This document shows, one piece after another, positions 6,882-51,432 of a DNA stretch of 64,000 nt (position 1 is its first letter; every line of letters begins with the position of its first letter). Source of the stretch: Antedon mediterranea. Lineage: Eukaryota; Echinodermata; Crinoidea; Comatulida; Antedonidae. The stretch lies in contig NC_092673.1 in NCBI RefSeq assembly GCF_964355755.1, positions 11,661,001-11,725,000 on the forward strand, given 5' to 3'. Position numbers and translations under genes: made by a program. Below the pieces are notes generated by a model, which was given only the letters and a program-made list of their open reading frames with translations, did no database searches and was not told where the DNA came from.

Positions 6882-7015
6882 TTTGCTTTAATTTCTGAAA
6901 GTGATAATATCTGCAGCGTTACTGGTAATATTATGCATATTATTATGTCTACATCACCGATCTCTCATTATCTGTAGGCCTACGTTTTTAAAAATGTCCA
7001 TGACTAATTTTTAGA

Positions 7016-23744: not shown

Positions 23745-23822
23745 ATGGCTGAACAGAGTTCGGTTGAGAGGTGGATAACTTTCGCAAAAGAATGTAAATA
23801 TCTTCCAGAAAATGATTTAAAA
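23745..23822 (+). CDS. PPP6C: PPP6C coding exon 1
   Basis: Encodes the 26-residue N-terminus, ending [11 protein letters not shown], followed by the donor GTACGT in phase 0. A TTTTTTTAG eight nt before the ATG could be an acceptor for a 5' UTR exon further upstream. Confidence 0.93.
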
Positions 23823-26800
23823 GTACGTAAATAGTTTGTTATTTTGTATATTTTATATGCTGAAGAAGACAGTATACACGAACAGATGTGTAATTACTTA
23901 CTTCCTGTCGAAGCTTGTTTTTATTATGCTAGGCCTCCCCGCCACCCGTCTTGTTTGTTCTGTGTTTGTGTTGAATTCATGCATGTCCCACAACCATACT
24001 AGCGGCTTAGTAGTCCAACCGCTGTACGTGGTCATTCTGGCCCAATTTGTGAGGATGATGAGACATATTAATAAAATGTCTCATCGTCCTCATATTATTA
24101 TCCCTACATGTACTACCCCATAGTTTCTCTGAAAAGAAAAATATTATACAGATATTGACTGCTTAGACTAATTAGAGGTTAAATATAAGATTTGACATCC
24201 CTGCTGAGGGAATGATATTTTGTTAAAGGAAATATTCCCTTGAACAATATATCATTCCCAAGCAAGGGGTTGTCAAATCTTACATTTTACCGATTTAAAA
24301 GGCGATATCTGTTATATTACATAATAATAAATATATTATATTACCAACAACTGCAGGGTCGGGTGTAGCTAGGCCTCCTTTTAGTAATAAGCCTGGTTGG
24401 GCATTGCATTCACCTTACCCTGCGAAGAATAATATACAGATAATTACTAATTAATGATTCCTTGACCTTGGCAATAAAATATTCACTTAGGCCTAGGCCT
24501 AGGCTAGGTCGTTTAAATTAACAGAAGAATTTCCATCAATAAGCCTACATTAATAATAATAATAATATTAATATCAGGTAGGCTGCGCCGCGCGTAACAG
24601 GTGACAAACGGTCTTTCATCACATCTAGGGAGGACTATTAACAAATGAGGGCGCTATGTATGCATAGTTTAAATAGTTTAGTGGATTAATTTCTTCAAGC
24701 AAGTTGCGTGGCACATCGGATAAAGTGTTTTGTGATGGAGTGACAATTCATTGCGAGTTCAAGTCCCAGTAGATGTTCTTGTATATTTATCGCCAAACGC
24801 TGGTGTTGCCACACGAAAATTACACAGTCAATATCGTCATACTCGAGGATATATACGATTTACGATCCTCGCAGCGGTAGTCATGTGATGCAGTTTCAAC
24901 CAATCACATTCACGTATTTACATAGGCTATGTAATATAAAAAGATGTTTTTATACTGGGTGAAAATTATTGGTTGGGTGTTTTTTTGGTCCATCAGAAAA
25001 AAAACACCATAGCCATTCACGTTTTCCATAAAAATGGCCATTTGAGTTGTCAATTGGCAAAAAAAAAATTGATATCTTTCACAACACTGGCGAAAATAAA
25101 CTTTTGCAATTTAAACAATTGAAATCGGATTATTCATTAAAAAGTTATGGTCTGTTAAAGTGGTCAAAAAATATATGGAACCATTTTTGAAGGGTTATAA
25201 CTTTTATATTACCGTAGTTCCCCGGGTATAATCCCACCCCCCTTGTACGTGAAATTTTCCCGAATTTGGGAGGTGGGACTATACCCGGGGATTTCCCGCT
25301 GCATGAACTGAAAATGACGATATTTCTTCTAGCTACGATTTAGGCTATCTAAAAGCTATATTCCGATGTAGGCCTAGCAATTAGACGGCCAGGCCATCTA
25401 GGCCTAGGCGGCCTAATTGTTCTTACCTGTGCTATGCCTACCGTATAGATTTTCCCCGAGATTTCTACTTAAAAAATACCCTAAAATGTGATCTAGGCCT
25501 AGCTTCCTAAATCGACATGAACTCGATCATACGAGTTCTCCATCGCATGTTGTTGCATGTGACACAAACTCTAATCTGCACAAGCTGGTCGATATAGAGG
25601 GCGGTGTTTTTTTACGGTAATCAAGCATGCACAGTAGTGTAAACAACAAGAAAGAATGTACACGACGGCGAAAGGATGTACAGAACGTGACGATCGGGGC
25701 ATGCTAGCCTTAAGGTTGTATTCAACTTAACAATGTTTGATGAGTTTTAAGTCAGCCAAATTCAGAGAAATTACTCTATTTTTTTGGTGAGAAATTGACG
25801 TCGGCCTAGCTAGCTACAGTAGGCCTAGGCCCACCTCTGGCCTAATGTTAAATTATACACTGGGACTTTGCCCGAGGATATGCTTGCGTGTGAAGGTAAT
25901 CGTAAAGTCGGGGGCGGGATTATACCCGAGGTGGGATTATACCCGAGGAACTACGGTAATAATTTGAAAGTTCTTATTTTTGCCAAACCCATAAATACAA
26001 CCGAGTTTGGTGGATAACTTTTCTGTTATTTTATCGGGTGAATCGTTTATTGATGTTTCAATTTTTTTCAATTTCAACATTAACTGTATCGGTATTTTAT
26101 ATACCAATGGGTTGCTGAATACTTGGAATTCCATTTGATTGAATTGTGGATACGCTTGTGTTGTATAGCAATTGTGGCACAACCACAACAACCACAACAA
26201 CCACAGATTAACATTTTCCGACGAAGCCTTTTGGTGGATAACTTTTTCTGTTATTTTATCAGATGAATCGTTTTTTGATGTTTCTATTTTCAATTTCAAC
26301 ATTAACTGTATCGGTATTTTATATACCATTGGGTTGCTGAATTCTTGGAATTCCATTTGATTGAATTGTGGATACGTGTTGTATAGCAATGGTGGTATCA
26401 GCGCTAATACTTAATGCCAGTAGGAGTATTCGCAATAAATCCATTAAACTATCAGCCTATCTTGCCATCCACGAGGTTGATATTATTGTCACAACTTGGC
26501 ATTCCATCGCAGTACCAGATAATTCGGAAGGATAGAGTTAACAAGAAGGGAGGCGGCGTTTTAGTGGCGACGATCTCGCTCCTGTTCAAATGAACTACAA
26601 CTCTGCAATTCTATACGAAGTTATATGCTTTTCAGTAACTGTTCATAACTGTAAAATGTTATTCATTGCGTGTTATTGTCCACCAAACGTGCCTATAGCG
26701 TTTTGGAACAGTTTTAGCAATGATTTTCTTGTTTCACTTCTACCTGAGCTGCCAATGTTTGATAGCTTATTTATTGTTGGTGATCTCAATTTAAACTGGG

Positions 26801-29800
26801 ATCAACCAAACTGTAGCCCTCCATCATTCAATGATGCTATGGATTCACTTGATTGTATCCAATTAGTTAATGGTATCACTAGGCCTAACCCAAATAACCA
26901 TGTAATTGAAACCACAATTGATTTGGTATTTACAAATAGGCCCGATCAAATATCATCGCTCTGTATTATTGATAATCCAGTTGAGAGTGATCATCATGCT
27001 ATTTCCTTAAACATTTGTAAAACTAAATTTTATTCTAAACAATTAATTAATAGTTTCTTAAGACTGACGTTGATCATCTTCTACAACTTTTTCACCTAGC
27101 CCCATGGGGAATCTTCATTGACAATAATGTAGATGATTCATGGGAAGGGTTTCTTGATATATATGATGCTGTGATACGTGATTGTGTTCCACGTCGTACT
27201 AAGAAGATGAAGAAACGTCACCCCTGGGTTACTGATGATATAAAGAAAGTTATAGCAAAGAAACGTACATTGTTTCAGAAGGCTAAACGCCAAGGTACTA
27301 TACTTGCATGGGAGGAGTTTAAGCGAGTCCGTAATGATGTAAAACAATTATGCCATAAATCATATTATGATTATGTGAACCGACTGTTCACGGGGGATAA
27401 AACACGGAAAGCCTTTTGGTGTTTTGTCCGTGAACGCAAGCGTTCACCGGCCCCAACCTCGTTTGACATTAACGGATTCGTTAGTTCTACTCCATCCGTC
27501 ATAGCAGATAGCTTTAATAACCACTTTGCATCTATTTTTAATGTATCTAAACCCTCTCCGACAGACCCTCCTATATGTTCCTTCCCTGTATCTAAACCCT
27601 CTCCGACAGACCCTCCTATATGTTCCTTCCCTGTATCTAAACCCTCTCCGACAGTCCCTCCTATATGTTCCTTCCATGTATCTAAACCCTCTCCGACAGA
27701 CCCTCCTATATGTTCCTTCCCTATACCTGAACTTTCATCGGTTGATTTCGATATCAATGACATTTAATCCAGCTTAAAATAAATAAGCTTGATATTAATA
27801 AATCCCCTGGTCCTGATGCCATACACCTGTATATTCTTAAAACGGCATCATATATGTTAGCTCCGCCACTTCATAATATATTTAAATTAACTTTGAAGAA
27901 AGGTAAAATACCATCTTCCTGGTGTATTTCCCATGTAACTCCAGTTTTCAAAACTGGAAACAAAGCAACTATCTCAAATTATCGACCAGTATCACTTACA
28001 CCAATATGTTGTAAAATACTTGAGAAATATATTCAGTCTGCTATATTTGAACATGTTACTTCAAATTGCCTTATCACTGACGTCCAACATGGGTTTTTCC
28101 CATCCCGCTCATGTGTTACGCAGCTAACTAACCTTCTCCATAATTGGGCATCGTCGCTGGACAAACCACGCCCACCTAGAATTGATGTTATATTTTTAGA
28201 TTACTCTAAAGCCTTTGATAAATTACCCCACCAAATTGTCCTAAATAAACTCGCTACACAGTTTAACATTAGAGGTCAAATATGGAAATGGATCCAATCT
28301 TTTCTATCTAATCTAATTCAGAAGGTTATATTCCAGGGATCTCTCAGTAGCTCACGCTCTGTGACATCTGGAATACCCCAAGGTAGTGTGTTGGGACCCA
28401 CAATATTTAACTTATTTATCAATGACCTACCATCTTGTGCCCTATTCGCCGACGATACGATCATTTATAGGGATATACAGTACACAGTGTTGATGATGAA
28501 CTTTTAATTAGTTCAACGTGATCTAAATACGCTCTCCACATGGTGCAACTTAAAGAAATGCAATTAAATTCAAATAAAACCTGTATTCTATACATCACCA
28601 GATCTAAAAAGGCATACCGTCCAAATTACTACCTTAATGATTCCCCAATACAATCGGATACTCATTCTCACCTTGGCGTTACCATTAATCATACTTTGAC
28701 TTGGGATAACCATGTACAAAATGTTACTGCAACAAGGGCAAATAGGATGATTGGTTATATTGCGAGTATTGCTGGGGGCACCTCGTCAGCAGCTGTATTT
28801 GCATGATACCGAGCTCTTATCATTCCCATACTCGAATATGTGATTCCCGCATGGCTTCCCCAGAGAGTAAAATTGATTGATAAGATCGAATCTGTTCAAC
28901 GTAGAGCCACATGGCTAGCATTGAAACAGAGAAGAGGAGATATGGAGTATGATGTTAGATTAAAACAACTCAATTGGCCCCGTATATCGAGCCGAAGAAG
29001 CTATCTTTTAACATCATTTGTATGTAAAACACTAATAGGTTCTATTGATTGTAAAACTGTTTGCATTGCTCAGTTATCCATGTCTTCCCGCGACTGTGGG
29101 AAGATATCCATGATGAAGTGAAAGATTCCCTGCTATTGGATTATTTCCCTACATTCCTTGCTAAACTTAAAATAAATTTGTTCTCCGATAATAATTAGGC
29201 CTATGTATATAATTTAAAATACTTTTTATATTTATTAAATGATTTAAACTTAGCTTTGGAATCTTGATATATTATATTTTAAGATGGTATAATCATTGCT
29301 TGTGAAACTGGGTGAGTGGGGAACACAGGCTTTAAGTCATAGTGATTAGGTTCGCTTTTGTGTCCCATGCCAGCTCACTCAGTTGGTTCTATTGTTTTTT
29401 TTTTGTATGTCGTGTTTTTCATGTTTTATATTTTGCAATATAAGAATAAGAACAAGACTATTTTTTTTAAGGTAGTCCTTGACATTTTTTTTTTAGCTAT
29501 CACCCTCCAAAATTTGTCCCAATGTCTCAAAAATGCCCAAAAAGTTCCCGTCTTTAAATGATTTGTAACTTTTGAACCAGTGTGAGATTTGACTTCTTTT
29601 TTTTGCATTGCATAGAATGTAATATGTATTTTAGTACGATTATTTATATTGGCAGTTAGATAGTTGTATTTCTGAAATACAACATAAAATATATATTGTG
29701 ACTGTGTTAAAAAACTGTGTGGGTATTGTTTCTTTTCATTAAATATTATTTTTTGTAAGTATACATTTGTAAGTGACCTACTTAATTTCATATGCAGTAT

Positions 29801-32800
29801 ATTTCAATGTGTTATAGCTCCTCAGAATGAAAAGTGACCCGCATGATTAAAACTTATTATGGAAGCTGTTGAATTGTATGAATTTCTATAAAAATGTTGT
29901 CTATCTGATGTCATGACGTCATCATATGGCCAGTTGAATTAAAAAAGTCAGATTTTCATCTCAAAGTGACGAGTTCAAATCTAGTTGTAACTTTTTTTTT
30001 CTTTTTTGTAAATATTTTTCTAAATATAATAATGAGTGATATAAAATTCAATTTAAATTAATACAGGTTAAATAAACATTTAGTTGGAATTTTATCACAT
30101 TTATTAATTAAGTTAAATTAAACAATTTAAGCACATTTAAAACATTTTTATGTTAAGCACATTAAATAAACATTTACCGTAGATTAAATATTTAAAAATA
30201 GTTAAAATTTAAACATTTTACAATTTTATAAACATTAGTCAAATCTACTCTCGTTGATGTCTTTGTTTAAATTTAATCTGTCTGCGTGCAGAATCAATAG
30301 ACTTAAGGCATTCCTTCAATCGGAGATCGATTTCTCCAACAGGGACAGTAGCTAAGTTACTTCGGTCTTGACGATTAAGTCAATTCTGGTCGTGTTGAGT
30401 CGAGCAGCGCCATTTCGTTCTGACGTGTTGTAATTGCGTCTTTCTTCCTTGGTGAAGTAGTATTTTGTCAATAGTCATGCCATATTTAGTCGGTCGTTGG
30501 TAAAGTTGTGTAGTCGTCGCTGTAAGTGTAAGTCCTGTGGAATTTGATTGGGGTCATTGTTCAATGGTGGTTATTGGTTTTGTGCTGCTTATGGCTGCTG
30601 TTGTCTGATGGTAGTTTGTTGTTGAAGTGTTGCCATAATGTCAGATACCTGTTGGTGCAGTGTTTGTTTTTGTCCTTTGTGTCTTTCAGTTGGTCTTCCA
30701 CACGTCCCAGTCTAAGTTCAAGTCGGTCTTGGAAATGTCATTTCCTTGTCGTAGTCATTGGTCAATTCGGCTAGTGTCTGGTCTGCGTTGTGGAGGTCAA
30801 TGTTGTCGGTATCATAGATCATAAATCGGTTCTTAAATTCTTCAGTCAGCAGTTAGTTGTATTGTGTATATTATGGATTGCAATAAATATTACAAACAAA
30901 AAACAAACAAGGTTATTGTATCTCAAAAAGTTAACCTTTTCGCATTATAACCTAGAAATAGGTATCCCAATGTAAAAATTCAAATTAATGATGGTACTTT
31001 TTCTTTCAGTTAATCAAAAGGAACTTAAAGAAAATAAACATTTGCAATTTAAATGATAGAAATCGGATTATCAATTCAAAAGTTATCGTCCGTTGAAGTT
31101 GCCAAAAAACGACGATATTCATAAACTCTGAAAGAGAAATCACTACATGTCAAACTTAAAAACTTTAGAGCCAATTTTGTAATACATGCCTATGTTTATT
31201 ATAGCTTTTCAGAATTAAATGCAAAAACAATACTTCTTATTCAACTTTTAGTCAGTTGTGTATGGCTTGGTGGTCTGTGCTCGCGTCTATAGCATTCAAG
31301 GTACCGAAATCGAGTCTCACCTTGGGAAACAAAAGGAAATAAGTTTTTGAATATCCGTATTGTCAATTTTATTTCTTAGTGTATAGATTATACGCATGAT
31401 TTATAATGAAATCTAGGACAAATGTAACTTATATCTTTATTATTATATAACAAAGGGGGTTTATGACATTATACCCAGAGAGATCTTTGATCAGATTGTG
31501 ATACCGGCTATTGTATTTGCTAGATCCTATCTTTCATAAATTATAAATAATTAAAGATTCCTGAAAATGGTTCTTGTAAAAATCAATGCATATAACTATA
31601 ATTCGTCATAGTGACGAATTAAATCTAGTTTATTATTGATATTGTGCCAAAGATTTGTAAATGTGAAAATTATCTTTAATAAGGGAGCGTGCCCAAATGT
31701 TTCAACTTTGTTAATCGTGTTGATCAACAATGCTCTATTTATGCAAGCTGATTTACATACGTTTCTACAGCGTTAGGTTAGTGTAGTGATGCGAACAGTA
31801 TTTCAATAAACCAGCGGAGTTCCCCCTGAAAGCATTGTGACGTATTGTGTGTTTGGCAGATCCTGCTAGCGACGTAAAGCTATATTTATCGCATCAGACA
31901 TGATTATGAATATGAATATACTTACTAGTTACTTATATTTTAACTGAACTGATTTACGATTTTGATGATGTTCTTATCAACAAACAAACAAAATATTTAT
32001 TTTAAATAATCGATTTCTCTGACTTCAACTTAATGAAGTTCAAGTTAAGAAATATATCGCTGACCAGCCTGGTACTAGACATAAAATTATTAATAATAAT
32101 TACTGTATCCTACTGTACCAACCAGGCTACCACCTTACAATGTAGCAACCAGGCTACCACCTTACAATGTAGCAACCAGGCTACCACCTTACAATGTAGC
32201 AACCAGGCTACCATCTTACAATGTAGCAACCAGACTACCACCTTACAATGTAGCAACCAGGCTACCACCTTACAAAGTAGCAACCAGGCTACCACCTTAC
32301 AATGTACCAACCAGGCTACCACCTTACAATGTACCAACCAGGCTACCACCTTACAATGTACCAACCAGGCTACCACCTTACAATGTACCAACCAGGCTAC
32401 CACCTTACAATGTACCAACCAGGCTACCACCTTACAATGTACCAACCAGGCTACCACCTTACAATGTACCAACCAGGCTACCACCTTACAATGTACCAAC
32501 CAGGCTACCACCTTACAATGTACCAACCAGGCTACCACCTTACAATGTACCAACCAGGCTACCACCTTACAATGTACCAACCAGGCTACCACCTTACAAT
32601 GTACCAACCAGGCTACCACCTTACAATGTACCAACCAGGCTACCACCTTACTTATCAACATTATAAATATTATTAGAGTCAAAGTTATCGACCAGGTCGA
32701 GGGGAAAATTGAACCGAAAAAACATGCGGCCCCTCTTCGGTGTAGGCTAATACACAACGTTCAGCGAGGCAAAAAAATGCAAACGCGCGTGCCGCTCTAA

Positions 32801-35800
32801 AGGCCTACCTGGATACACACAACCTGAAACAGAACAACTCGCATTCTTATCATGTAACAGGGACCATGTTGTTATGGTCATCCTAGGGCCTGTTTCTGCT
32901 GCAACTGCTCAAAATACGGTATAAAAATACGGTATAAAATACGGTATTTTTTATACCGTATTTTTTAGTACCCCGTTTCTGCTAACAATACTTCTTGGGT
33001 GGTCGTGTTAAATTTCATCTTTTTTACCCAAATTGCCATTCATTTATTTGATCGATAATTAAAAGTCGCAATAAAGGAAATTTTACGTCTCACTTTCAAC
33101 AGCCTAGCCCTAGTGATAGAGATGTTGTGAGAGCACAGAAAACATCGTAATGGGGACAATTAATTCGTTCCCTCCCCGAGTTATTGTATTTTACAATGTT
33201 GTACTACTTTCGCAGGCTCTTCAGCTTTGAGTTTACTTGCTTTGGAGACAAGTCTATTCCATACTCCTGCTTTATTTTTTTAGAAATGTCTTTATAAATG
33301 TGGTTGTCCCTTTTATTACCTTTTAGTTGGCCAGACATTTTAGCTTCCCCACACACATTTATTTAGTAAAACTGTGACGTCTTCGCTCCACATTTTCGCC
33401 GAATATATCTATACACGTGTGTAAAGCAGCTGACAGCGACAGAAAATAAAAACACAAATGTTAACCTTTTGTCATGTAAAAAAAAAATACGGTATTTTTT
33501 ATTGGCAGCAGAAACGGGTACAAAAAATACGGTATAAATTTGTAAATACCGTATTTTATCCACAAATTTTGTGGGGAAAATACGGTATACAAAATACGGT
33601 ATATTTTTTATGAGCGCAGTTTCTGCTGCCAAAAATATACCGTATATATACGGTATTCAAAAAATACCGTATAATATACGGTATTTAGTTGGCAGCAGAA
33701 ACAGGGCCCTAGTCAATCTATTGACTATGCTCTCATGTTTAAACAGTGTGTACTGTTATATCTTTACACCAGTACACACTTGTCTGGCTGTGTTCCTTTG
33801 TTCGAATCGGTTGATCGATATAATAATATATATTCTGTGGCAATATCAAAAACAACTTTTTTTTTGTGCAATAAATTTTTATATAATTATAAAATACATT
33901 TGAGTTAAAAAATGTTTCATATTTATAAAAACATGAGTTTTTTTTTAACTCATTTTCAGCTATGAAAGCCAAAGCAAAGGTTTTTTTTTCAATTTTGATA
34001 ATGAACAATATTTAACACTTTTTATAGTTTTAAAAATGTAATACAGTTTAGTAAATGAATGACATGCACGCCCTATAGTAGTATGTAATATTAACAACAT
34101 AACAATAGCGATATTCTACTCTGTTAATAGAATAATATGCAAAGTGTACCGAAATGAAAATGTTTTTTAGAGAAAACTATGTAAAGAGATAATGGCTTAT
34201 GTATGGAAATAAAAAATACACCTAAAGAAAAAAACAGTAACACATAGACTCACAGTTTTTAAACAAATATTTTAAAGTTTTTATTTAAATTTATTTGCCA
34301 ATTTGGTTACCCATTGACTTTAGACATGCCTGAGAAATTCCCAATTTTATTCTGATTTTTTTTTTATTTTCGTAGAAATTATGTGAACATGTATGTGAGC
34401 TGCTTCTGGAAGAGTCCAATGTGCAGCCAGTTAGCACACCAGTTACAGTTTGTGGTGACATTCATGGACAGGTATAAAAGTCTGTTTTACACAAAATACT
34501 CACTCACTCATTATTGAAGTTCTCTAACAATTGTAGTACTGTAGCTTGCTTGTTCAGTTAACCTTTGCTAGAGGATGTTTGACCTGTATCTACGCACGCT
34601 AGCCGTTCTCAAAGTCACAAATGGCGCCTGAAAGTCTCATTTGGCGAAAACAAAAGTAGGCATAATTCGCCAGATGACGAAGCTGAGCTTTATATATTGT
34701 TTTTTCCATACGTAATAGAATCATTAGATTAATATAAATTGCCAACGAGCGAAAATGTACAGTGACTCCACGATCTAGTCTCTCACCTCAGGGAAATTCC
34801 ACTTCTTCAGCATCATCGATCAAAGTGCGCTGATTGTTTAAGTGGCAGATTATTCGTTAAAAGACACAAAATTTACAAATATCAAATTTGATCAATGTTT
34901 ACTTTCAGTTTTATGATTTAGAAGAATTATTCAGAACAGGTGGCCAGGTTCCTGATACTAATTATGTATTCATGGTAGGTCTGACATTCTGTTTAAAAAA
35001 CATAGGTTTACACACAACTTTACTTTTGAGTATGTTAATTTTATCCATGAAAAATCAGTGGAGTTGCTCTGTATTTGAACACATCAGTTTTTTCTCTGCG
35101 GATTATAATATAATTTGACCTTGAGAGTAATGTCGTAAGCTAATACTCTACAAAGGCCAATTTACACAGACGAGTGGTAACGGTAAGTGGAAAACCAGTG
35201 TGGCGCAGGGTGTTGGACTACTGATCGTGAGATCGAGGTTCGAACCCAACTCTCGCCGCATTTTTTGTATCCTTTTAGGCAAGATACTTTACTTACGTTT
35301 GCCTCTCTCCACCCAGGTGTATAAATATCAATTTTCAAAAATTATCTATTGTATCTCAAGTCTCAATAATTGTGTATCTGTATTCTCAGGGTGACTTTGT
35401 AGATCGTGGATATTACAGTTTAGAAACATTAACTCGTTTATTGACAATCAAAGCCAAATGGCCTGACAGAATCACACTTCTAAGGGGTAACCATGAAAGT
35501 CGTCAAATAACACAAGTTTATGGTTTTTATGGTAAGTTTTGTATATAATTTATTTCTTGAATATTACAAAACAGTACATAATAGGTAGTTACATTTGTAG
35601 GCTGCTTGTTGGATTTGTAACCACAATAAACAACAACAACAACATAACCAAGATGATAGACAACACTATGATTTTCTTTGTAAGTGTGTGAAAAGAGTTA
35701 ATTTCAACTATTGATTACTTGAAGAAACATAAAATTGTCCCAAGAATATTTAATACAATACAATTTAATTGTATTGTATTAAATATTCTTGGGACAATTT

Positions 35801-38800
35801 TTAGGTTAAATACAATGTTTTTAATCGTTTAGTTTCTGTTGTGTTATGTATTCAATAGCAAAATAAATTTTCTACTGGGGAACCTTAAAAAAACTAGGCC
35901 AATTTCAACAATATAGTATGGTGGTGGTTTATCGAAGAAAAAGAAGTTTGTTGATCATATCACTGAGGCTTTACTTACTGTATAGTACCATTATAAAAAT
36001 AATTAATTGTACTTTATTACTTTAATTTTGTAGATGAATGTCAGACAAAATATGGAAATGCAAATGCATGGAGATACTGCACCAAAGTTTTTGATCTTCT
36101 TACAGTAGCTGCAGTAAGTGTTGTAGTTCTACAGTACACAATCTTGTATACTAGAGTTTCCCACAATATGTGCCATGTCAAAAGCAGTGCTGAGTCGCAA
36201 CCCTGACTTTTGATATACAATGTGAAGAATGAGATTTGAAAAATGCATCACATCAACCTATATCAGCAGTATTCCAGTCAATGGAATTTAGTTTGATTAG
36301 TTTTGATTCCCAGTAGAAAAAAAATCCTGCCACAAAAAAACACAAAAGATGCCCATCACAAGTGTGGAATCTAAAAAGGAACCCTGGGCTAGTACTTATA
36401 AAACTTGGATGGAGTTTGATGTTGGTACCTTTCACACCAAAACAGTGGTGTGTTCCCACAGTTCACCCTCTGGAGAACGTTCAGCTGTTCAACCCCGCTG
36501 TTTTAAACACCAGAGTTGTGTGATTTTACCTTTTACACCAAAACAACTCCGGAGTATCTCCACAGTTTTGAAAGGGGTTTAAAGACACATCCCTAAAAAA
36601 AATAAAATATCGTTATTTATCTAGAGTTCTTTAACAGACTTACTATTTATTTTGGCAAACATAATCCAATATGGATTTAGAAAAACTAATTTGGCACTAG
36701 TTGACCTTTGTGACAGAGTATTTAGTTCCATAAGCAAAAATGAGTTTACAGTTGGCGTCTTCCTTGATCTGAGTAAGTATTGTGTCTCCATGGCCTTCCG
36801 CTACAATTGATCAAAAGTTACTTTTAAAGGTCAACAATTCACAACATTCTCCTCTTTTGACTCTACCTATTCAAATATTATTTGTGTTGTGCTCTTAGGC
36901 CCTCTCCTCTTGTTTGTCTATGTGTTTGATTTGCCAAACTCTTCTAAACGCCTTTATTTTATTCTCTTTGCCGGCGATTCGAACATCCTTCATTCCCATC
37001 AAAATATTAATGTTCTTTTTGAACAAATAAATTTGGAACTCAAACCGGTATCAAATTGGTTTAAACCCAACAAACTGTCATTAAATATTTCCGAAACCAA
37101 CTTCATAATCTTCTTACGCAAAAATACTAAATCAACTCATTCAAAACACAAAATTGTTGTTGACGCACTGAAATTACACGAGTTCAAGAAACTAAATTTT
37201 TAGGAGTAACCATAGACTCCACATTGTCATGGAAATCACACATTAATAATATATGTAATGTCAAGAAATATTGGTGTAATTGAAACATTATCTTCCTATT
37301 AATATACTCTTTATTTTATACAATGCATTAGTACTTTCTACAATGCATTAGTACTTTCTACAATGCATTAGTACTTTCTACATTTCTTACTGTAATATTG
37401 CCTGGTCCGGTTCACTAAAAAAGTTTGGAAACTTATGCCCCTGGACAAGCTTCGAAACCACTCATATTTACGGTTTATTTAAATTACAAAAAAGTGTAAT
37501 TTGCATCTGTTTAAGGGTTAGTCTTAACTCTCATTCTAAAAGTTGGTTCCCACTAGAACGTAACGCAAGGATGTAAACGCAACGCAAGCGTTTTAACCAA
37601 TGACAAGCGAAGTTATAGACAGTTAGCAATCACAAGCGAATAAGCCATCGCTTGTGATTGGTCAATTCACTTGCGTTGCATTATGTCCTTGCGTTGCGTC
37701 GCTAGTGGGAACCACACTTAAGGCGTTATTTTATAACCTAAAGGTCCTAAATATTTTTGATATCAAATACAAACTACTATCTTTATGTTTCAATCCCAAA
37801 ACTCTCTTCCAACTCATATCACTTCCCTATTTAGCAAACCATCCATTTTATCACTTGATGCGTTTTTCATCATCTAATTTTCACTCAAAATTTCGTCCCT
37901 CACAAATTACCAGAAACTCTATTATTATATCTTAAGTACCAATTCATCTAAAATCAAAGAAATCAGTAGCCAGCTTCAAAATCACTTATAAAAGAAATCA
38001 ATAATTAACGACTACATTTCCTAATTTATCTATTTTAAAAAAATCTGTTTTGTTAATAATAATAATCTTGTATTAGTAAGTTTGAAAACTTGAAAATAAA
38101 TAAATGAAATTTAAAAAAAAAGATGTATTTCCCTCTGAAAAATAATTTTTTACAATTTTGTTGTTGAATATGCCATTTTAACGTCGCATAATAGTTATTT
38201 ACTTTTACCAAAAATTGGATCTGAAAAAAAATTATTTACCTGAAAAACTGTAATTTAAAGCAAAAAAATAGTAAAAGGGTTTTGGTTGGATTTTGTTTGT
38301 TTGTTTCTTTATTTCCATTCACAACAAAAAACATAAACATACATAAAAATTCATTGCCTATTGTATGCAAATGGATAAAAGGCACATGCCCAACCATGGC
38401 TTTACCTAATAATAAAGAACGAGACAATTAATCCTTTAGTCTTTTTTTAAATATTGCCTATACCGTGCTGGAAAGAAGAAGAAAAGAGATCATGCAGGAA
38501 TTAACATTAGAATTGCACTTAAAATCATTTTTATAATGTAGGCGGCCTACATAAATTTAGAATACTATAGTATTATTGCGCCTACTTTGCAAAAATAACA
38601 ATAGGCCTATACCCACCACACGGGGGGCCAGCAATCTTTGTGTATAATACCATTCCAATCGTTACGTTTATAAATGAAATAATATCAGTCGTTGACAAAT
38701 CTTCTCATAAATAGTATAACATTAATGCAAAAATGCCTTGAAAACTAGGCAGGAACAGGTTGCCGTTTCTAGGCCTTACCTAAAAGCCTTAGCCCTAGCC

Positions 38801-40934
38801 AACAATGAGCGAGGCGCACCCTTAATTGTCGAAAGTTAGACTTATACACTGAAATATATGGTAGGCCTAGTCTAGACGTCCTTACATAATACAAGGCCTA
38901 TTTCTGGAACATTAATAGTCTAGGTTAGGCCTATTTGACCAATGCAAACAAAAATAAAAGTTTTTTCTTTTTTTTTTGTAACGATATCACTAGAGTTGAA
39001 CTGGATTTTACTCGTGTGATTGTCAATGATACAACTTGTTCATTGTCAGTAATTGAAATGTACTTTTTCTTGTAAATTGTTAACATTTTGCAATTTAACG
39101 TTGCGATATCACAAAAAGTGAAAACTATTCAAACTCTAATTTGTCATTTCAGATTATCGATGAACAGATTTTGTGTGTTCATGGCGGACTATCACCTGAT
39201 GTAAAAACTTTGGATCAAATACGAACCATAGAGCGTGCTCAAGAAATTCCTCATAAAGGGGCTTTTTGTGATATCCTTTGTTATTGTTACCAACTCTTTA
39301 TGTTAAAATGTTTAAGAAAGAATATTTTACATCTGAAATCAAAATTTGCATTTTTTCCTCACTTTGTAGTATAATTAAACTTGATTGAGCATATAGTTCT
39401 TTTGTCTCTTTTTGACCAAGTTGTATTTTGATAACAAAAAAACAATAGACCACACAAGTTAATTTTTCTTTAACTTATAAAAATTACATCTTGTTTGGTC
39501 AGATCCTGAGGATGTTGATACCTGGGCAATTAGTCCACGTGGAGCTGGATGGCTGTTTGGGGCGAAGGTCACAAATGAGGTCAGTTACATAAACACTCTA
39601 CCACATCATCATTATTTTCTTATTATCTAGTATTCTCTTCTTTGCCTTTCAAAGTAACCTTAAAGATGTATTGTCCCCCAAAATCATGAAAAATAAAGAT
39701 TTTGAAAATCGGACTTTGAATAGGCCATTTTGCAGTTTTAATGAAGTTGTTCACTTCCATAAGAAAAAAAATGGGGGAAAAAAATTATTTCACCTATAAA
39801 AAGACAAAATAAACAGTTAAATTACTCAAAAACTCATTGTCTTCCAGACAATTTGACCATTTTTTGCTTTAAATTACATTTTTCTCAGGTAAATAAAAAT
39901 TTTTCAGACCCAATTTTTTGTGAGAGTGAATAACTATTATGTGACATTAAAATAACATATTCAACAAAAAAATTTAAACAAAATTTTTTTTAGAGGGACA
40001 ATATATCTTTAATGTAATGTTGAATTTTATGCACATATTTGTCATCATTTTAAATCAGGATGGTATGTTATAAGCATTTTTTCCAGTGGATGTTAAGTTA
40101 TGTCAATTTCAACCATTGAAGTTGAAGAGAGTTTAACTTTCACAATATGATTGTTAAAACTGACCAATCAAATGGTTTTACAAAGTATGTTATAGTTTGT
40201 GTACGCGCTGATAATTCTTCCAATTCAATGATGTTTTTCACCTTCTTTGCATACTTTTAAGTTAAGATATTTCAAAATAACAAGTGTAAGTAAAACTAAA
40301 TTTGAATACCAATGCAATTTAATTTAATTTTTGTCTTTATTAATAAACATAAACATGTCTCAGACTAGAGTGCAGTATCAAGAACCCAAATGTTTGCAAT
40401 TTTCCCACGGAGCTGACTGCGCATGCATGTCCCAATAATGCTCGATAGAAACAGCAAATATATAAATATGTAAATATTAGCTTTTTGGCTCGATGATCAT
40501 CATTGTTATTTATTCAACACAATATCGACTGGAAAACAGGCTTTACTTATAGAATATGTATTATATACTTGATTGGCACATTGAGTAATTAAACTTGGTA
40601 CTTGAGTACTTGAGTAATTAAACTTTTTAGACACAAATAATGTAAATGTTTTACTTTGTGGATTTCTTTTTTTAATTTTTTTTAGTTTGTCCACATCAAC
40701 AATCTAAAGTTAATCTGTAGAGCACATCAGCTTGTTCATGAAGGTTACAAATACATGTTTGACGAGAAGCTTGTGACAGTTTGGAGCGCCCCCAACTATT
40801 GTTATCGATGTGGCAATATAGCATCGATAATGGCCTTTCGTGATACCAATAGTAAAGAACCAAAACTATTTCGTGCTGTACCGGACAATGAAAGGGTTAT
40901 ACCAACAAGAACCACAACTCCTTATTTTTTGTAA
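23745..40934 (+). CDS. PPP6C: Serine/threonine protein phosphatase 6 catalytic subunit, 8 exons
   Basis: Joined exons (23745-23822, 34376-34471, 34909-34974, 35390-35531, 36034-36113, 39153-39270, 39488-39579, 40686-40934) give 306 residues in one frame; the human protein has 305. The PPP-family metal and phosphate motifs are all present: GDIHGQ at 53-58, GDFVDRG at 81-87, RGNHE at 112-116, HGGLSPD in exon 6, and the YxFL-type terminus TTTPYFL, where PP2A-like enzymes are carboxymethylated. PP6-specific wording such as [15 protein letters not shown] and KYLPENDLK separates it from PP2A and PP4. PP6 dephosphorylates targets including Aurora A and NF-kB pathway components, acting with SAPS and ankyrin subunits (family knowledge). 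All introns are GT-AG except intron 6, which is AT-AC. Intron 1 (10.5 kb) hosts a LINE and MITEs. Confidence 0.97.
24051..24093. repeat. Hairpin in PPP6C intron 1
   Basis: GAGGATGATGAGACAT and ATGTCTCATCGTCCTC are inverted arms with one mismatch and a short AT loop. Confidence 0.8.
24150..24950 (+). mobile_element. Dispersed ~0.8-kb repeat, copy 1
   Basis: Collinear with 47806-48680. Shared blocks in order: GATATTGACTGCTTAG, ATATAAGATTTGACATCCCT, GTCAAATCTTA, AAAAGGCGAT, CGAAGAATAATATACAGATA, AATTACTAATTAATGATTCC, ACAAATGAGGGCGCTATGTA and a tRNA-like segment near 24705-24775 (GTGGCACATCGGATAAAGTG; GAGTTCAAGTCCC). A CTCATGTGATGCA-like block closes it. No protein is encoded. The tRNA-like part hints at a SINE component within a composite repeat. 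Confidence 0.8.
25212..25956. mobile_element. MITE with TA target duplication (Tc1/mariner-type, tentative)
   Basis: Ends CCGTAGTTCCCCGGGTATAA and TTATACCCGAGGAACTACGG are inverted, flanked on both sides by TA. A second internal copy of GGTGGGATTATACCCGAGG-like sequence lies just inside each end. The interior (~700 bp) is rich in TAGGCCTA and has no transposase frame. TA duplication and this kind of end fit Tc1/mariner/pogo derivatives; this is inference. Confidence 0.8.
26009..26395 (-). repeat. Two-copy tandem repeat with conserved open frame
   Basis: Two ~170-200-bp units (about 26009-26165 and 26228-26395) are near-identical, separated by an ACAACCACA microsatellite. On the minus strand each unit encodes [10 protein letters not shown](E/V)FSNP(M/L)VYK and [10 protein letters not shown], in one uninterrupted 150-codon frame. 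The protein is not recognised. The LINE begins immediately to the right, so the repeat may be transposon 5' sequence instead of a gene. Confidence 0.6.
26404..29460 (+). mobile_element. Degraded LINE (APE endonuclease plus reverse transcriptase)
   Basis: Plus-strand pieces in several frames. Near 26410, [20 protein letters not shown]; at 26590-27060 the endonuclease block with [21 protein letters not shown] and [10 protein letters not shown]. At 27171-27767 is a linker with a 45-bp tandem repeat; at 27854-28507 the reverse transcriptase with [48 protein letters not shown] and LFADDT. At 28540-29121 lies the thumb/C-terminal region. Several frameshifts and stops make it inactive. The domain order fits the CR1/Jockey-like group of non-LTR elements; the exact clade is not certain. 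It lies sense-oriented in PPP6C intron 1. The 3' tail runs to AATAAGAACAAG. Confidence 0.85.
27543..27722 (+). repeat. 45-bp tandem repeat inside the LINE frame, four copies
   Basis: Encodes [15 protein letters not shown] four times with minor changes (TVPP, FHVS). The unit length is a multiple of three, so the frame stays open. Confidence 0.95.
29461..32100. other. PPP6C intron 1, mixed repeat remnants
   Basis: AT-rich intron. 30236-30450 on the minus strand reads [20 protein letters not shown] then [14 protein letters not shown], a coding-like relic I cannot name. 31030-31105 repeats wording at 25090-25170 (AATCGGATTAT, AAAAGTTAT). 31255-31320 has a weak tRNA-like A/B-box pair (TGGCTTGGTGGTCTGTG; CGAAATCGAGTCTCACC), possibly an old SINE head. 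Confidence 0.4.
32110..32652. repeat. 27-bp minisatellite, about 20 copies
   Basis: The unit is CAACCAGGCTACCACCTTAC followed by AATGTAC or AATGTAG. The first ~7 copies carry mostly GTAGCAACC and the rest GTACCAACC, showing that one variant has spread through the right part. Because 27 is divisible by three, frames stay open on both strands, but no host-gene context supports coding. Confidence 0.95.
32887..33707. mobile_element. TIR element with 5-bp duplication and ATACGGTAT clusters
   Basis: Ends GGCCTGTTTCTGCTGC and GGCAGCAGAAACAGGGC are inverted with one mismatch. They are flanked by CCTAG at 32882-32886 and 33708-33712. Both subterminal regions are packed with ATACGGTAT and AAATACCGTATTTT palindromes, and further TTTCTGCTGCC copies lie inside. 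The interior carries a Myb/SANT-like relic on the minus strand. The superfamily is unassigned. Confidence 0.85.
33190..33340 (-). pseudogene. Myb/SANT-like DNA-binding domain relic
   Basis: The minus strand reads [20 protein letters not shown], then [24 protein letters not shown], a stop, [10 protein letters not shown]. The spacing of hydrophobic residues and [14 protein letters not shown] resemble the Myb/SANT-like domain of transposon-encoded accessory proteins. It has one in-frame TAG and no other domain, and is enclosed by the TIRs of the 32887-33707 element. Confidence 0.6.
33713..34375. other. PPP6C intron 1, 3' part
   Basis: AT-rich intron with many T runs and no repeat or gene that I recognise. 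Confidence 0.6.
34376..34471 (+). CDS. PPP6C: PPP6C coding exon 2
   Basis: 32 codons from [10 protein letters not shown] to GDIHGQ, between TTTTCGTAG and GTATAA. Contains the first metal-binding motif. Confidence 0.95.
34909..34974 (+). CDS. PPP6C: PPP6C coding exon 3
   Basis: 22 codons ([20 protein letters not shown] then FM), between TTTACTTTCAG and GTAGGT, phase 0 on both sides. Confidence 0.95.
35190..35330 (+). mobile_element. tRNA-derived SINE in PPP6C intron 3
   Basis: The head has an A-box-like TGTGGCGCAGGGTGTTGGAC and B-box-like GAGGTTCGAACCC. The body TTTTAGGCAAGATACTTTAC then CTCTCCACCCAGGTGTATAA resembles conserved SINE central domains. The anticodon arm is not intact, so it is not called a tRNA gene. 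The copy ends about 60 bp before exon 4. Confidence 0.75.
35390..35531 (+). CDS. PPP6C: PPP6C coding exon 4
   Basis: 142 nt from [10 protein letters not shown] to the first base of an Asp codon. Carries the GDxVDRG and RGNHE active-site motifs. Acceptor TATTCTCAG, donor GTAAGT. Confidence 0.95.
35731..35801. repeat. Perfect 35-bp-arm palindrome in PPP6C intron 4
   Basis: Arms 35731-35765 and 35767-35801 are exact inverted copies with a single T between them. The left arm begins AAAATTGTCCCAAGAATATT. No mismatch was found on manual comparison. Confidence 0.95.
36034..36113 (+). CDS. PPP6C: PPP6C coding exon 5
   Basis: 80 nt completing the Asp codon and running [20 protein letters not shown] to VAA. 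Acceptor AATTTTGTAG, donor GTAAGT. Confidence 0.95.
37320..37382. repeat. 20-bp unit in three tandem copies
   Basis: CAATGCATTAGTACTTTCTA occurs three times in a row inside the degraded LINE. Confidence 0.95.
37538..37719. mobile_element. MITE of the GGTTCCCACTAG family, copy 2
   Basis: Nearly identical to 17933-18115 in opposite orientation, including CAATCACAAGCGAATAAGCC. It is inserted in the LINE relic of PPP6C intron 5. Confidence 0.9.
38118..38262. mobile_element. Fragment of the ATATTGTCCC MITE family (inverted)
   Basis: Contains GATGTATTTCCCTCTGAAAA, GAATATGCCATTTTAACGTC and CAAAAATTGGATCTG. These are the reverse-complement counterparts of blocks in the copy at 39660-40012. Confidence 0.6.
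39153..39270 (+). CDS. PPP6C: PPP6C coding exon 6
   Basis: 118 nt, [16 protein letters not shown] to GAFC plus the first base of Asp. Acceptor GTCATTTCAG. The exon ends at TTTTGTG|ATATCCTTTG, an AT-AC U12-type donor. Confidence 0.95.
39271..39487 (+). promoter_or_regulatory. PPP6C: AT-AC (U12-type) intron of PPP6C
   Basis: The 217-bp intron starts ATATCCTTTG, matching the AT-AC minor-spliceosome donor consensus. It ends in AC. A branch-site-like TTCTTTAAC (39466-39474, one mismatch to TTCCTTAAC) lies with its A about 14 nt from the end, and there is no pyrimidine tract between. Removing exactly this segment restores the conserved [16 protein letters not shown] found no GT-AG pair that does so. 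Confidence 0.9.
39488..39579 (+). CDS. PPP6C: PPP6C coding exon 7
   Basis: 92 nt completing Asp and giving [20 protein letters not shown] to KVTNE. Preceded by AAAAATTAC (AC acceptor), followed by donor GTCAGT. Confidence 0.95.
39660..40012. mobile_element. MITE copy B of the ATATTGTCCC family, in PPP6C intron 7
   Basis: Ends TTAAAGATGTATTGTCCCCC and GAGGGACAATATATCTTTAA are inverted. It is about 350 bp with no coding content. This is the best-preserved copy of a family also seen at 14828, 38118, 51433, 55000 and 56290. Confidence 0.85.
40686..40934 (+). CDS. PPP6C: PPP6C terminal coding exon
   Basis: 82 codons from [20 protein letters not shown] to TTTPYFL and TAA. Includes [11 protein letters not shown], the conserved PPP C-terminal metal-site region. 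Acceptor TTTTTTTTTAG. Confidence 0.96.
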
Positions 40935-45779: not shown

Positions 45780-48700
45780 CTTTAAGAGAACAATGAGATG
45801 TGAACACTAAACTAAACTTGATAGTTTGATTCAGTTCACTTTTGGAAATCCTGTCACTCTCTATTATTTGTTTTTTTTATATTCAAGACAAAATAAATGA
45901 AATGAAATGAAACTACTACACCTACTGTATGTGACTTGCACTTAGTAGTGTAGCGATTCCCGATAGTTAGGGAAATGTTAAATACTTACCGACTTCATTG
46001 TTTTAATGACTTCATCTAATCTTGAATGAGATCGTACTTGATCTTTGATGTCTATAAACTCATTTGAGAATGCCATTACTTCATAATTCAACTCTGTTTT
46101 CATTGTTACCATCATCATTGCAGCTGCAGCTTCAATAGCAGTCATGTTAGCTGAACCATTGATACCGCTAAAAGACATTGAATCACTGACATCGATTGAA
46201 AGCATGTACCTCTTCTTAGTGGGTTCAACTGCCTAAATAATTGTACAAAAATAGTACAAATATCAATGAACGAGAGCATCAATGATGTAATATACCACTC
46301 ATGTATAAACATTCTCGAATATCTAACCCCCAGAAATTTACAGAAAATTAAACTACTCTACTCTCATTCAATACAAAATGCATTTCACTAAATTTCCATA
46401 AAACCGAAGCAATGATTATTGATTATATTCAAAGTCAGATTAATTATGGGAGCTGAATTGGTATGAAAATTCAAAAACACTTTTGAACTTATTTATATTA
46501 TACAAAATAAAATGTACTGTACATTTTAAGTGATGTGACTGAATGTGTTGTCGGCTAAATCTAGAAACCACCAAACCTGTGTTGAGGTGAGGCAATATTT
46601 CCACATTAATGAAATAACATTAAACATACTTTTCAAGATTCAAGAAATGTCATTGGTCAAAGTTGAAAGATGTTTGCAATAAGCAGATTGTATAGTGAAA
46701 TAAAGTGCTTATTTTTCATTACCATGTAATTTTACATTGTTGTATTTACTCTGTGTGTTCTATCTCTGTTAAATTGTATGTTTTAATTTTAGTGCAAGTT
46801 TGCAAGTTTGACGGCACCACTATTATAGTGTACTGCCATTGATTTAAAAGTAATTGTCAGTCTATTTATTTATATAGTGTCACATTCTTCTTAACATAAA
46901 GCTCTAAGCAGATTTTGAACAAAACAGTAAACAAATTTCAATACCCAAGTCATTTTTCAGCTATTTACAGGTATTAGACCCAGTAAGGCAAAAAACTACC
47001 TTATGTTAATGTAATGCGACCAACCTTTAAAATACACTCTATCCTAGACATTTAAATTTATTTTAAAGAAAAAAAATAATCAAGAATTGGCTTGGTTTTC
47101 CCATGGAGTAAAGATTTTTATCCAAAATCAAGACGATTTAACATATTAAAAAATTGAGTGGCTGCTTACCTAAACTAGATTTTTGGGTCTGTTGGCATTA
47201 TGCCAACATAACTATTTTTTTAGCCTAATTATTAACAGTATTACTCTACAAATTTAAAATTATTTTAGTTCACTACTTTTCATTATAAAATATTTAACAA
47301 TAATACGTCATTTTTGTCAGTAACAAAAATACTAAACAAGTTACATTTGAATACAAATACTATATTAATAGACTGGTGCCTAATGAATGTTATTTGGTAT
47401 TTTTCAAAAACAAATAGTTACAAATACAAACAGTATTGTAAAAAACAGCTAAATTGTAGTAGGTTTTTAGATTACCTTAAAAGAAAGATAAAAGGCTGTT
47501 TCCAATTCGTCCAAAATCCTTGAATTTGGTAGCCATGTTAACTTGCCCTTTTCACCTTTTCCACTTTTGTATGTTTTAAGGGCAAGTAGCGCCATGAATG
47601 GATGGAGTCTGGATTCTTTTAACAATTCCAAATTCCTCAGTTTCTCAATTACAATTAATGCCTCTTCAGAATTGGCTGAAAACATGCCAATAGCCGTCAT
47701 TCTTCCCAGATTACGTATCATTGCTGTCATAGGCATGTCCTTTAATAATGCTGTCCATACCTTATACATAATATACATTTTAATTAAAGTAACTTGAGCA
47801 TTTCGATATAATACAGATACTGACTGCTTAGAGGTTAAATATAAGATTTGACATCCCTGAGGGAATGACATTATGTTTGAGGGAATATACTGTATATATA
47901 ATTCCCCGAGAACATAATATAATTCCTGAGGGATGTCAAATCTTATATTTTACTGATATAAAAGGCGATTATATTACATAGCCAACAACAAGTAAAATAT
48001 CTGCTGGGTCGGGTAGCTAGGATAGGCCTCCTTTTTGTATTGTATGTAAACAAGCCTGCCTAGACACCTTACCTTGCGAAGAATAATATACAGATAATTA
48101 CTAATTAATGATTCCTTGGCAATAAAATATTAACTAGCCTAGGTCGTTTAAATAATGATCACCAATAAGCCTACATTAATAATAATAATATTATTATCAG
48201 GTAGGCCGAATCACCGGATGTTCGGTGCATTGTGCGCAGACCAAGTTACTACTGTTATTATTAATCAATCACAAACGGTCTTTTATCCCATCTAGAGAGG
48301 ACTAATAACAAATGAGGGTGCTATGTATGCATAGTTTAATTGATTAACTTCTTCAAGCAAGTTCCGTGGCGTAGCGGATGAAGCGTTGTCTTGTGATGGA
48401 GTGTTCAAGTTGAAGTTCAAGTCCCAGTAGATGACTTTTGTTTATTTATCGACAAACGTGAGTGTTGCCACACGAAAATTACACAGTCAATATCATCGTA
48501 CTCGAGAACTGGCTGGAATTTGTTTAATGACAGGGACACGATAATTACTTGAAAATTACTCAGTCAATATCATCGTACGTGAGGATATATATGATTTACG
48601 ATCCTCACAGCGGTAGTCATGTGATGCAATTTCAACCAATCACGTTCACGTATTTACTATGGCTATGTAACATAAAATAATCTTTAATTGAAACAGAGGC

Positions 48701-51202
48701 TATTATTTTTATATAAATTCAATCTAATCTAATATTTTAGCTTATACAGTTTTGGGCAGTACTACTGTAAATTAAAGGTTACTACACACTACAGTTGGTA
48801 GGACGATAACATTTATGTTTATCTACAGATAAACATAAATTTTTCTTACATAACAAAAGAAATTAGAAAAGTTTTCATTCTAGAACTAAAATAATCATGT
48901 ATGCTGTCTTTTATAAAAATAGTATTGTTAAAAATCCAATCAAATGACGTCATCTTATAAATTGTGTACAATATTAGTACTGGTTACATGTGTATTATAT
49001 GTAGTTTCATGTAAAGATATTTTATTTTGTGTCGTTACATTTTTTAAAAACAAAAATCATGCAAACAACAAGTGAATGAGCCCACGCCAGCAAGAAAGAG
49101 ATGTGCGATAATCAGTATTCAACATTTAATCAGGTAAGTACCACAATTGTATGCTGCGCTTATTTATGATAATGATATGACAATTAAATAATGGTGCAGA
49201 TTTCTGTAAACATTTCAAAACTTTTTTCCATGCGACGTTGACTGATCGTGTTCCTAAATCAACTGTTTTACTCTGCGTCTAAAGTTGGAGCACATTTTTT
49301 TAATGGCCTAGTTTCCCAGCACACATATTTGGATAGTTTTAAAAAAACTTAGAAGAAAATTTGGAAAAAATTTACAATCATTATAGAGAAGCATCTCATA
49401 GAAATGAAATAAAAATGGAATGAAATATTAAAAGCATTTATATGGGACTTGTCATCTGAACACTTCTACATGCAACAGGTGTAGATAACAAACCACCATC
49501 AATAAGAAAATCTACAAATTTAATAAAAATAAATCTATTGAAAATGGGGGTAATTTTAATGTATGTAACCTATGTTTGTAAGATGACCACATGTCATAAG
49601 CCATACAAAAGTAACATGGTAAGCAAAATCGTGTAAAACGCATCTGTACAGATTAAATCTGATGGATATAGAGTAGGTCAAGTTTTACAACATTCGTAAA
49701 GCTAGTTACTTATTCGCCATAGAGGACGTAGATGCAAATGGTAAAGTAGGCAAGAGTCATCGATCCCTACCAAAAAAAAATAGGTACGCTAATGACCGAT
49801 AGAGATATGGCAACCTTTACCTGTTGTATTACTAATTTGCATACTTTCAAGGGAAGTAATACTTCAAAATCAATGGACGTAAATAGTTTTATTCTTGACA
49901 ATTTTTTTTTTATAAATAATTTGTCAGAGTACGGGCTAGTTAAATTAATTTAGGAAATACAGTCTCATAATGAATCCAACAATTTTATTACATTTGCTTG
50001 TAGTTTGAGAAGTGTGTTTATTCCACTTGAAATCTGAAAACATTGTGACTTTCCGTTACACTTTCAAGTATTTTATTATTTATTTTTAATTGGAAATAAT
50101 TTTTTTCTTTTCATCTTATTGATCAACATAACTTCACATCTATTATTTAAAGACAAATTATTATTATACCTGTACAGATTTTAGGAGTTGTGTGGGTATA
50201 TGCTCTCGAACCAGCTTGTTTTCTTCAATAAGAACTGCCACTTGTGTCTCATCTTCAGATTTTCTAACACACTCAACTGCCTCTAAAAACTCAACAACTT
50301 TCTTGACTTCTGAGATCTCACAATCATTGTAAAGCTTTTTCACTTCAGCAATTCCTTTGAATATGTATTTAAATACAGCATCAACACCTGAAAGAAACAA
50401 TTGAATATTTAACGTTTATTATTATAAATACTGCATATTATAGTAATGAGTAACAATTACTATTAATAGAACAATGCATACAGTAGGTTTGAGAATGTGA
50501 TCAACACAACTTGATGAACAGTTGGAAAGAACCAACCGGATTGAGGCCAAGCACTTTTAATACCCAAGACAGGACCCTAAACCTCTCTATCTACTGGAAT
50601 ACTAAAGTTGGTGTTACTGTACCTTGTTGGGCTGAAGGATTTACATGACAAAGTCGAAGAACATCTTTATGAGACCAGCCATCTCGCTTTTTATACTTTG
50701 TTACAAGGTAAGCTAACCTCCGAGGGTCTTTGTCTAGGTACCAGGCTTTAACAGCACGTCGATGGGCTCTTCCCCAGCCGCTCGACTCTCCACTTACACG
50801 TTCACAATAGTCAATAAATTTAAATAGATGTGTTGGTATACGACATACTTTTGAGAGAGCTTTATAAGCAGCAGTTTTCGTTTTTAAGTCTGAACAACGT
50901 GCACATAATGCGAGTACAATTAACAGTGGGTTTTGCTTTGAAACTCTGCCCTCATCGCTGTATTTCACAACTTCTTTAACAACATTCAAACCTTTACCAG
51001 ACGCTACAAGATCAGCAACAGCTGTAACACTTTCTTCCCCAAGTGTTTCTTCTTGTACGTAATAAGTTCCTTGAGAAGATCCAAGACAGAGAAATCTTCT
51101 AAGACGGTCAATATCTTTAACATTCCATACATAGCTTTCTGCCGAATTCTGTACTTGAGAATCGTGCAACTTTTGTGTTTGCTCCACACTCTCTTGCGTC
51201 AT
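45444..51202 (-). CDS. RO60: 60-kDa Ro/SS-A ribonucleoprotein (TROVE module plus vWA), 5 exons
   Basis: Joined exons 51202-50623, 50387-50170, 47760-47476, 46232-45990 and 45779-45444 give 553 residues in one frame; the human protein has 538. All introns are GT-AG. The N-terminal TROVE/HEAT ring includes LRRFLCLGSSQGTYYVQE, ALCARCSD, RRAVKAWY and WSHKDVLRLCHVNPSA; exon 3 has MPMTAMIRNLGRMT and RLHPFMALLALKTY. The C-terminal vWA domain has a complete MIDAS-type DVSDS at 375-379, GSTDCAQPM in exon 5, FIIYTDSET near 468-475 and MTSNGFTIADP. Ro60 binds Y RNAs and misfolded small RNAs, in RNA surveillance (family knowledge). An in-frame TAA precedes the ATG, and a TTTTTCAG about 45 nt upstream suggests a 5' UTR intron. 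Confidence 0.97.
45990..46232 (-). CDS. RO60: Ro60 coding exon 4
   Basis: 81 codons, AVEPTKKRYMLSIDVSDSMS to IKTMKS. Contains the MIDAS DxSxS. Acceptor CAATTATTTAG, donor GTAAGT. Confidence 0.95.
47476..47760 (-). CDS. RO60: Ro60 coding exon 3
   Basis: 95 codons, VWTALLKDMPMTAMIRNLGR to ETAFYLSFK. The acceptor TATAAG lacks a strong pyrimidine tract. A dispersed repeat begins about 45 bp upstream of it. Donor GTAATC. Confidence 0.93.
47806..48680 (+). mobile_element. Dispersed ~0.85-kb repeat, copy 2, in Ro60 intron 2
   Basis: Collinear with 24150-24950 (see blocks listed there), including a tRNA-like part near 48361-48435 (CCGTGGCGTAGCGGATGAAG; GAAGTTCAAGTCCC). Inverted phrases ATATAAGATTTGACATCCCT and AGGGATGTCAAATCTTATAT near its left end make a stem. 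Relative to copy 1 it has an extra ~90 bp near 48510-48580. Confidence 0.8.
48810..48839. repeat. Hairpin in Ro60 intron 2
   Basis: ATTTATGTTTATCT and AGATAAACATAAAT are exact inverted arms around AC. Confidence 0.85.
50170..50387 (-). CDS. RO60: Ro60 coding exon 2
   Basis: 218 nt from GVDAVFKYIFKGI to LLKSVQ. Acceptor TTTCTTTCAG, donor GTATAA. Confidence 0.95.
50623..51202 (-). CDS. RO60: Ro60 coding exon 1
   Basis: 193 codons plus one base; from MTQESVEQTQ to CHVNPSAQQ, then donor G|GTACAG. Holds the first half of the TROVE ring. Confidence 0.95.
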
Positions 51203-51432
51203 TTCACAATACTCTAATTAATTGATTTGAATGACGAAATAAACACCTGAAAAAGCAAATTGTTTGAATCAAATATTCATGTGCATTAAAGTAGCTTATA
51301 TTTATAACAATCTATAAAGTGATAAGAAGTGTTACAGTATGTTATAGTATCATTATCAATATCAGCTTATTAACATGGTTTTACAGTACTTGTACAATGC
51401 AGTGCAGGGAAACATAACCAACAGAACTAAAT

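Follow-up and report, generated by a model that had tools for sequence, protein, structure and literature searches.

We report that intron 6 of the protein phosphatase gene PPP6C in the crinoid Antedon mediterranea begins with AT and ends with AC, and is with high confidence a functional U12-type intron, the class removed by the minor spliceosome. The gene lies on the forward strand of a 64,000-nucleotide (nt) stretch of contig NC_092673.1 (positions 11,661,001 to 11,725,000), called the window below, in whose numbering positions are given. A sequence-only reading had placed an AT-AC intron in PPP6C at 39271-39487, and these coordinates proved exact, with exon 6 ending at 39270 and exon 7 starting at 39488. 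Our confidence applies to the class of the intron and not to any role in PP6 dosage; its actual splicing, its splicing rate and any regulatory effect are what we infer from the signals listed here.

39271-39487, + strand: U12-type AT-AC intron 6, 217 bp, phase 1
39271-39280, + strand: U12 5' splice site, ATATCCTTTG
39466-39474, + strand: U12 branch site, TTCTTTAAC, presumed branch A at 39473
39486-39487, + strand: 3' splice site, AC

Three U12-type signals had been claimed for this intron, and all of them were found. Scored by match counts against consensus strings (donor ATATCCTTT; branch TTCCTTAAC, roughly 10-16 nt from the 3' end), the donor ATATCCTTT agrees at 9/9 positions and the branch site TTCTTTAAC at 8/9, with its second and first A 14 and 15 nt from the 3' end, respectively, and the terminal AC restores the reading frame. 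Sliding the junction by +1 or +2 leaves the mRNA unchanged and turns the ends into TA...CA or AT...AT; the unshifted junction alone places ATATCCTTT at the start of the intron and AC at its end. The remaining six introns of the gene are all GT-AG, as had been stated of them, and share 3-6 of 9 positions with the U12 donor.

The gene model spans 23745-40934 of the + strand and consists of eight exons that join into an open 306-codon frame with one final stop.

23745-23822, + strand: exon 1, coding part, start ATG inferred
34376-34471, + strand: exon 2
34909-34974, + strand: exon 3
35390-35531, + strand: exon 4
36034-36113, + strand: exon 5
39153-39270, + strand: exon 6, ending after the first base of an Asp codon, phase 1
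39488-39579, + strand: exon 7
40686-40934, + strand: exon 8, coding part, with TAA

The model protein is identical to human PP6C at 271/305 residues (88.9%) and to PP2A-C at 175/301 (58.1%), and is thus nearer to PP6C than to PP2A-C; its alignment to PP2A-C runs ungapped through the intron 6 site. Profile and sequence searches covered all 18 contigs (354 Mb) of the source genome. Separate loci elsewhere in it are, by their motifs, presumably PP2A-like and PP4-like. Published work is cited here and below from those parts of each paper that were available. For human PPP6C, c.237+1 is given as the exon 3 donor, and the exon 2 donor is weakened by a change at c.171 (PMC6544075). Allowing one extra N-terminal residue, these human positions, the only two found in print, fit introns 3 and 2 here. 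Because of the difference in identity, the separate PP2A-like and PP4-like loci and the fit of introns 2 and 3, we take the gene as PPP6C, and as the sole PPP6C found in the genome. The PPP6C protein has 30 matches genome-wide, eight of them in the gene itself, and no intronless PPP6C retrocopy was seen among the 22 outside it.

Whether the genome holds the machinery for such an intron was determined with Rfam models at their curated cut-offs, together with searches for the CCDC84/CENATAC and zf-U11-48K families. The minor-spliceosome interpretation had been tied to the presence of the small nuclear RNAs (snRNAs) U11, U12, U4atac and U6atac, and all four are in the genome above cut-off: U12 at 125.7 bits, U4atac at 97.6 bits, U6atac at 136.6 bits, and U11 as two genes at 88.6 and 82.9 bits. 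The genome's own U11 can pair with positions +4 to +9 of the intron 6 donor at 6/6 (one G-U), its U6atac with positions +4 to +8 at 5/5, and its U12 with the branch site at 8/8 (one G-U), one A being left out. The CCDC84/CENATAC family gave five matches at one place in the genome. The two U11 genes (L004 and L005) lie on different contigs and have a common 5' end, AAAAAGGGCTTTT, followed by divergent stretches. A second U6atac-like sequence (L003 1501-1602, G000:C7:8523554-8523655) scores 33.7 bits against a cut-off of 33, has a changed 5'-splice-site pairing region and is probably a decayed copy.

Two other genes served as controls. PHB2 and KCMF1 are reported to carry U12 AT-AC introns in fly and human (PMC2831892), and they are the only two AT-AC hosts of that list that were tested here. 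In the PHB2 gene of this genome, the exon end ATCATG is followed by ATATCCTTTC, and the intron end TTGTAC by CTGGGA; two tied branch-like sites (7/9) lie 13 and 19 nt from the intron end. In KCMF1, the exon end GATCTT is followed by ATATCCTTTT and the intron end TTTAC by GATGAG, with the branch-like sequence TTTCTTAAC (8/9) 13 nt from the intron end. Both junctions restore the protein as in human; in each gene a further AC, 12 nt upstream, also keeps the frame and would add four residues. The signals at these known sites show that AT-AC introns of such form exist in this genome, and PPP6C intron 6 looks like them: ATATCCTTT stands at the exact exon end, the terminal AC restores the protein, and a branch-like site is present. 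The difference is that they are other genes, with an intron reported in fly and human, whereas no such report was found for PPP6C in the literature searched.

AT-AC introns are put at 24% (PMC8280824) or about 26% (PMC10639083) of human minor introns, and PPP6C intron 6 is a further example of this already known class. The literature searched, with supplementary tables and minor-intron databases outside the search, held no report that links PPP6C to U12 or minor splicing; PPP6C together with the word 'U12' brought up only sheep genomics, as far as titles tell. PPP6C also did not occur among the papers listed in a wider search and in one on exon counts, and work on how minor introns are gained offered no lead to a phosphatase.

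We then weighed whether the true intron could be a nearby GT-AG pair, the AT-AC match being fortuitous. Junction pairs were enumerated between donors lying in 39230-39329 and intron ends lying in 39440-39544, and those of the types GT-AG, GC-AG, AT-AC and AT-AG that kept the frame and were free of stops numbered 36, namely 11 GT-AG, 3 GC-AG, 9 AT-AC and 13 AT-AG. Conventional pairs are thus at hand, and the in-frame GT-AG pair nearest to the AT-AC ends is 39268/39502. The existence of this pair weighs against the U12-type class, as do the imperfect branch site, the scoring by simple match counts, and the unspecific zf-U11-48K search, in which three matches over cut-off were discarded, the 25-position model also matching two prokaryote controls, one of them over cut-off. 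The donor of 39268/39502, however, looks weak (TTT followed by GTGATA), and its use would remove CDLVWSD and leave GAFYPEDVD. Exact removal of the AT-AC intron had been said to restore a conserved 15-residue stretch, and 39271/39487 is the only pair of the 36 to do so; none of the 14 nearby GT-AG or GC-AG pairs yields it. The 15-residue motif was drawn from the model itself, and its independent support is the ungapped PP2A-C alignment through the site. The donor word alone is unremarkable: the 64-kb window has a single ATATCCTTT on the + strand and none on the - strand, which means little because 0.69 occurrences per strand are expected. For it to coincide with a frame-restoring boundary, a branch site and AC, the probability is about 1e-9 per given intron under a first-order Markov model, in which the 8/9 branch threshold was set after the site was seen. 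Against such a figure, a GT-AG intron with a fortuitous AT-AC match is extremely improbable.

Terminal dinucleotides by themselves leave the class of an intron unsettled (PMC2831892), and intron 6 could instead be removed by the major (U2) spliceosome, which is known to splice certain AT-AC introns of sodium-channel genes. Those U2-type AT-AC introns carry G at +5 (PMC2831892), whereas intron 6 has C there, and in addition its donor matches the U12 consensus throughout and is accompanied by a U12 branch-like site; we regard U2 splicing as very improbable. There is next to no chance, finally, that the gene is a non-functional copy in which the intron has no importance, since its 306-codon frame is open over eight exons, its protein is 88.9% identical to human PP6C, and matches within the gene reach 99% identity, compared with at most 72% for the other 22. 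The interpretation of intron 6 as a minor-spliceosome intron, proposed from the sequence alone, has therefore held, with the four minor snRNAs present in the genome and like signals in the PHB2 and KCMF1 introns.

To place the intron in the history of the family, eight PPP loci were fetched, of which seven cover the intron 6 site and one (L021) does not; their names are presumptive, being assigned from motifs. No intron was found at the homologous phase-1 position in any of the seven (0/7), and sharing of intron 6 with these paralogues was rejected. In L016, L017 and L020 a single exon runs through the site. In the PP2A-like locus L015 an exon starts 13 nt upstream of the homologous site, with both intron ends seen, and exons of L018 and L019 start 12 nt and that of L022 starts 7 nt upstream, the acceptor AG being the only intron end read in these three. 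PP2A-C, the related phosphatase of L015, is thus interrupted in the homologous stretch, between HE and GPMCD, but by a GT-AG intron of phase 0 that lies 13 nt before the PP6 site and is a separate intron. A genome search for introner-like further copies of intron 6 gave one match, the intron itself. From the seven paralogues and the single genome match, there is no sign that the intron predates the split of PP6 or arose from a repeat.

Human PPP6C has seven exons, which would fit the absence of intron 6 in human and does not indicate which intron is missing. A melanoma panel names human exons 2 and 4-7 (PMC7737361), that is, at least seven exons as against eight here. No U12 gain was found among vertebrates, and one U2-to-U12 conversion was found in flies (PMC2831892); large gain of minor introns is described as extremely rare, with some allowed in chelicerates (PMC10639083). 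According to published work, loss of U12 introns is common and gain rare, which favours an old intron that was lost in some lineages. An origin of intron 6 within this lineage, whether by gain or by conversion of a U2-type intron, with vertebrate PPP6C lacking it, is unlikely.

The mechanism that we propose for intron 6 follows the textbook order of splicing steps. U11 would base-pair at ATATCCTTT and U12 at TTCTTTAAC, where a branch A stays unpaired; the U4atac/U6atac.U5 particle would then join, and U6atac would take the place of U11 at TCCTT. Excision between AT and AC would make the Asp codon in GAFCDLVWSD whole again. Being a minor intron of the A-type, intron 6 would probably need CENATAC and be spliced more slowly than the neighbouring introns. 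Transcripts that keep it would have a premature stop and would either stay in the nucleus or be degraded, and the output of PP6 could be limited in this way by minor-spliceosome capacity. Retention of intron 6 brings in the following stop.

39372-39374, + strand: in-frame TAG upon retention of intron 6, following residue 227 and 205 nt before the last exon junction

Degradation of the intron-retaining transcript is expected because of this distance of 205 nt to the last exon junction.

The part played by CENATAC is argued from human cells, where 92% of A-type minor introns and 24% of the G-type ones were affected when it was depleted, and from a reporter in which GT-AG minor sites outcompeted AT-AC sites (PMC8280824). 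Intron 6 resembles the CENATAC-dependent human A-type (AT-AN) introns in its AT-AC ends, its U12 donor, its host gene with a role in cell division and the CENATAC homologue in this genome; PPP6C is unmentioned in the available text of that report, and the need of intron 6 for CENATAC would hold by analogy. PP6 restrains the activity of Aurora A toward NDC80 in mitosis (PMC10041653). By analogy with the human minor introns, the output of PP6 may depend on minor-spliceosome capacity, and control of PP6 dosage by minor splicing is plausible, if conjectural. As regards dosage only, we give an even chance to the alternative of a genuine but neutral U12 intron, spliced constitutively with no effect on the PP6 level. 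Neutral processes may explain much of the evolution of minor introns (PMC10639083), whereas the relatively high basal retention of AT-AN minor introns in human cells (PMC8280824) tells against neutrality, by analogy and not as evidence of regulation in this species. Retention of intron 6 would introduce a premature stop, which also tells against neutrality, though it is not in itself regulation.

Besides the intron signals, exons 6 and 7 with the AT-AC intron between them are enclosed by the arms of an inverted repeat at 38130-38276 (intron 5) and 39852-39998 (intron 7), 147 nt long and 78% complementary. The predicted duplex of the two isolated arms has -134.0 kcal/mol, whereas 100 mononucleotide shuffles average -24.9. 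The arm at 39852 belongs to a dispersed family with at least 40 places, all at least 95% identical (40 scored of 1818 candidates). Such a layout can possibly favour a circular RNA of exons 6 and 7, and, as an unlikely further step, slow minor splicing could divert transcripts into this circle.

Other elements were noted in the introns of PPP6C and in the neighbourhood. Intron 1 contains a reverse-transcriptase fragment at 27761-28504 (RVT_1, E 2.7e-25) and a tandem array at 32114-32651 with period 27, 19.9 copies, 98% matches and several open frames; a stretch of intron 5, 36811-37203, looks reverse-transcriptase-like by eye and had no Pfam match at E 0.001. On the - strand at 47467-51217, two open reading frames match Pfam TROVE over cut-off and are probably exons of an RO60-like gene that lies downstream of PPP6C on the opposite strand. 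Two large open reading frames at 2635-6887, also on the - strand, form a possible TPR-NTPase gene, one matching AAA_22 over its cut-off and NB-ARC and NACHT below theirs, the other having TPR repeats.

While the mechanism itself is established biology, a PP2A-family phosphatase here joins the hosts of AT-AC introns, with three U12 signals in the intron and four minor snRNAs in the genome. If intron 6 is missing from vertebrates, PPP6C would offer a clean case for dating the loss or gain of a minor intron. Should it have been gained or converted within this lineage, it would be one of the very rare U12 introns gained recently in metazoa and would make a mitotic phosphatase subject to CENATAC-sensitive control. 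If its splicing is slow, the intron would link the activity of the minor spliceosome to a mitotic phosphatase.

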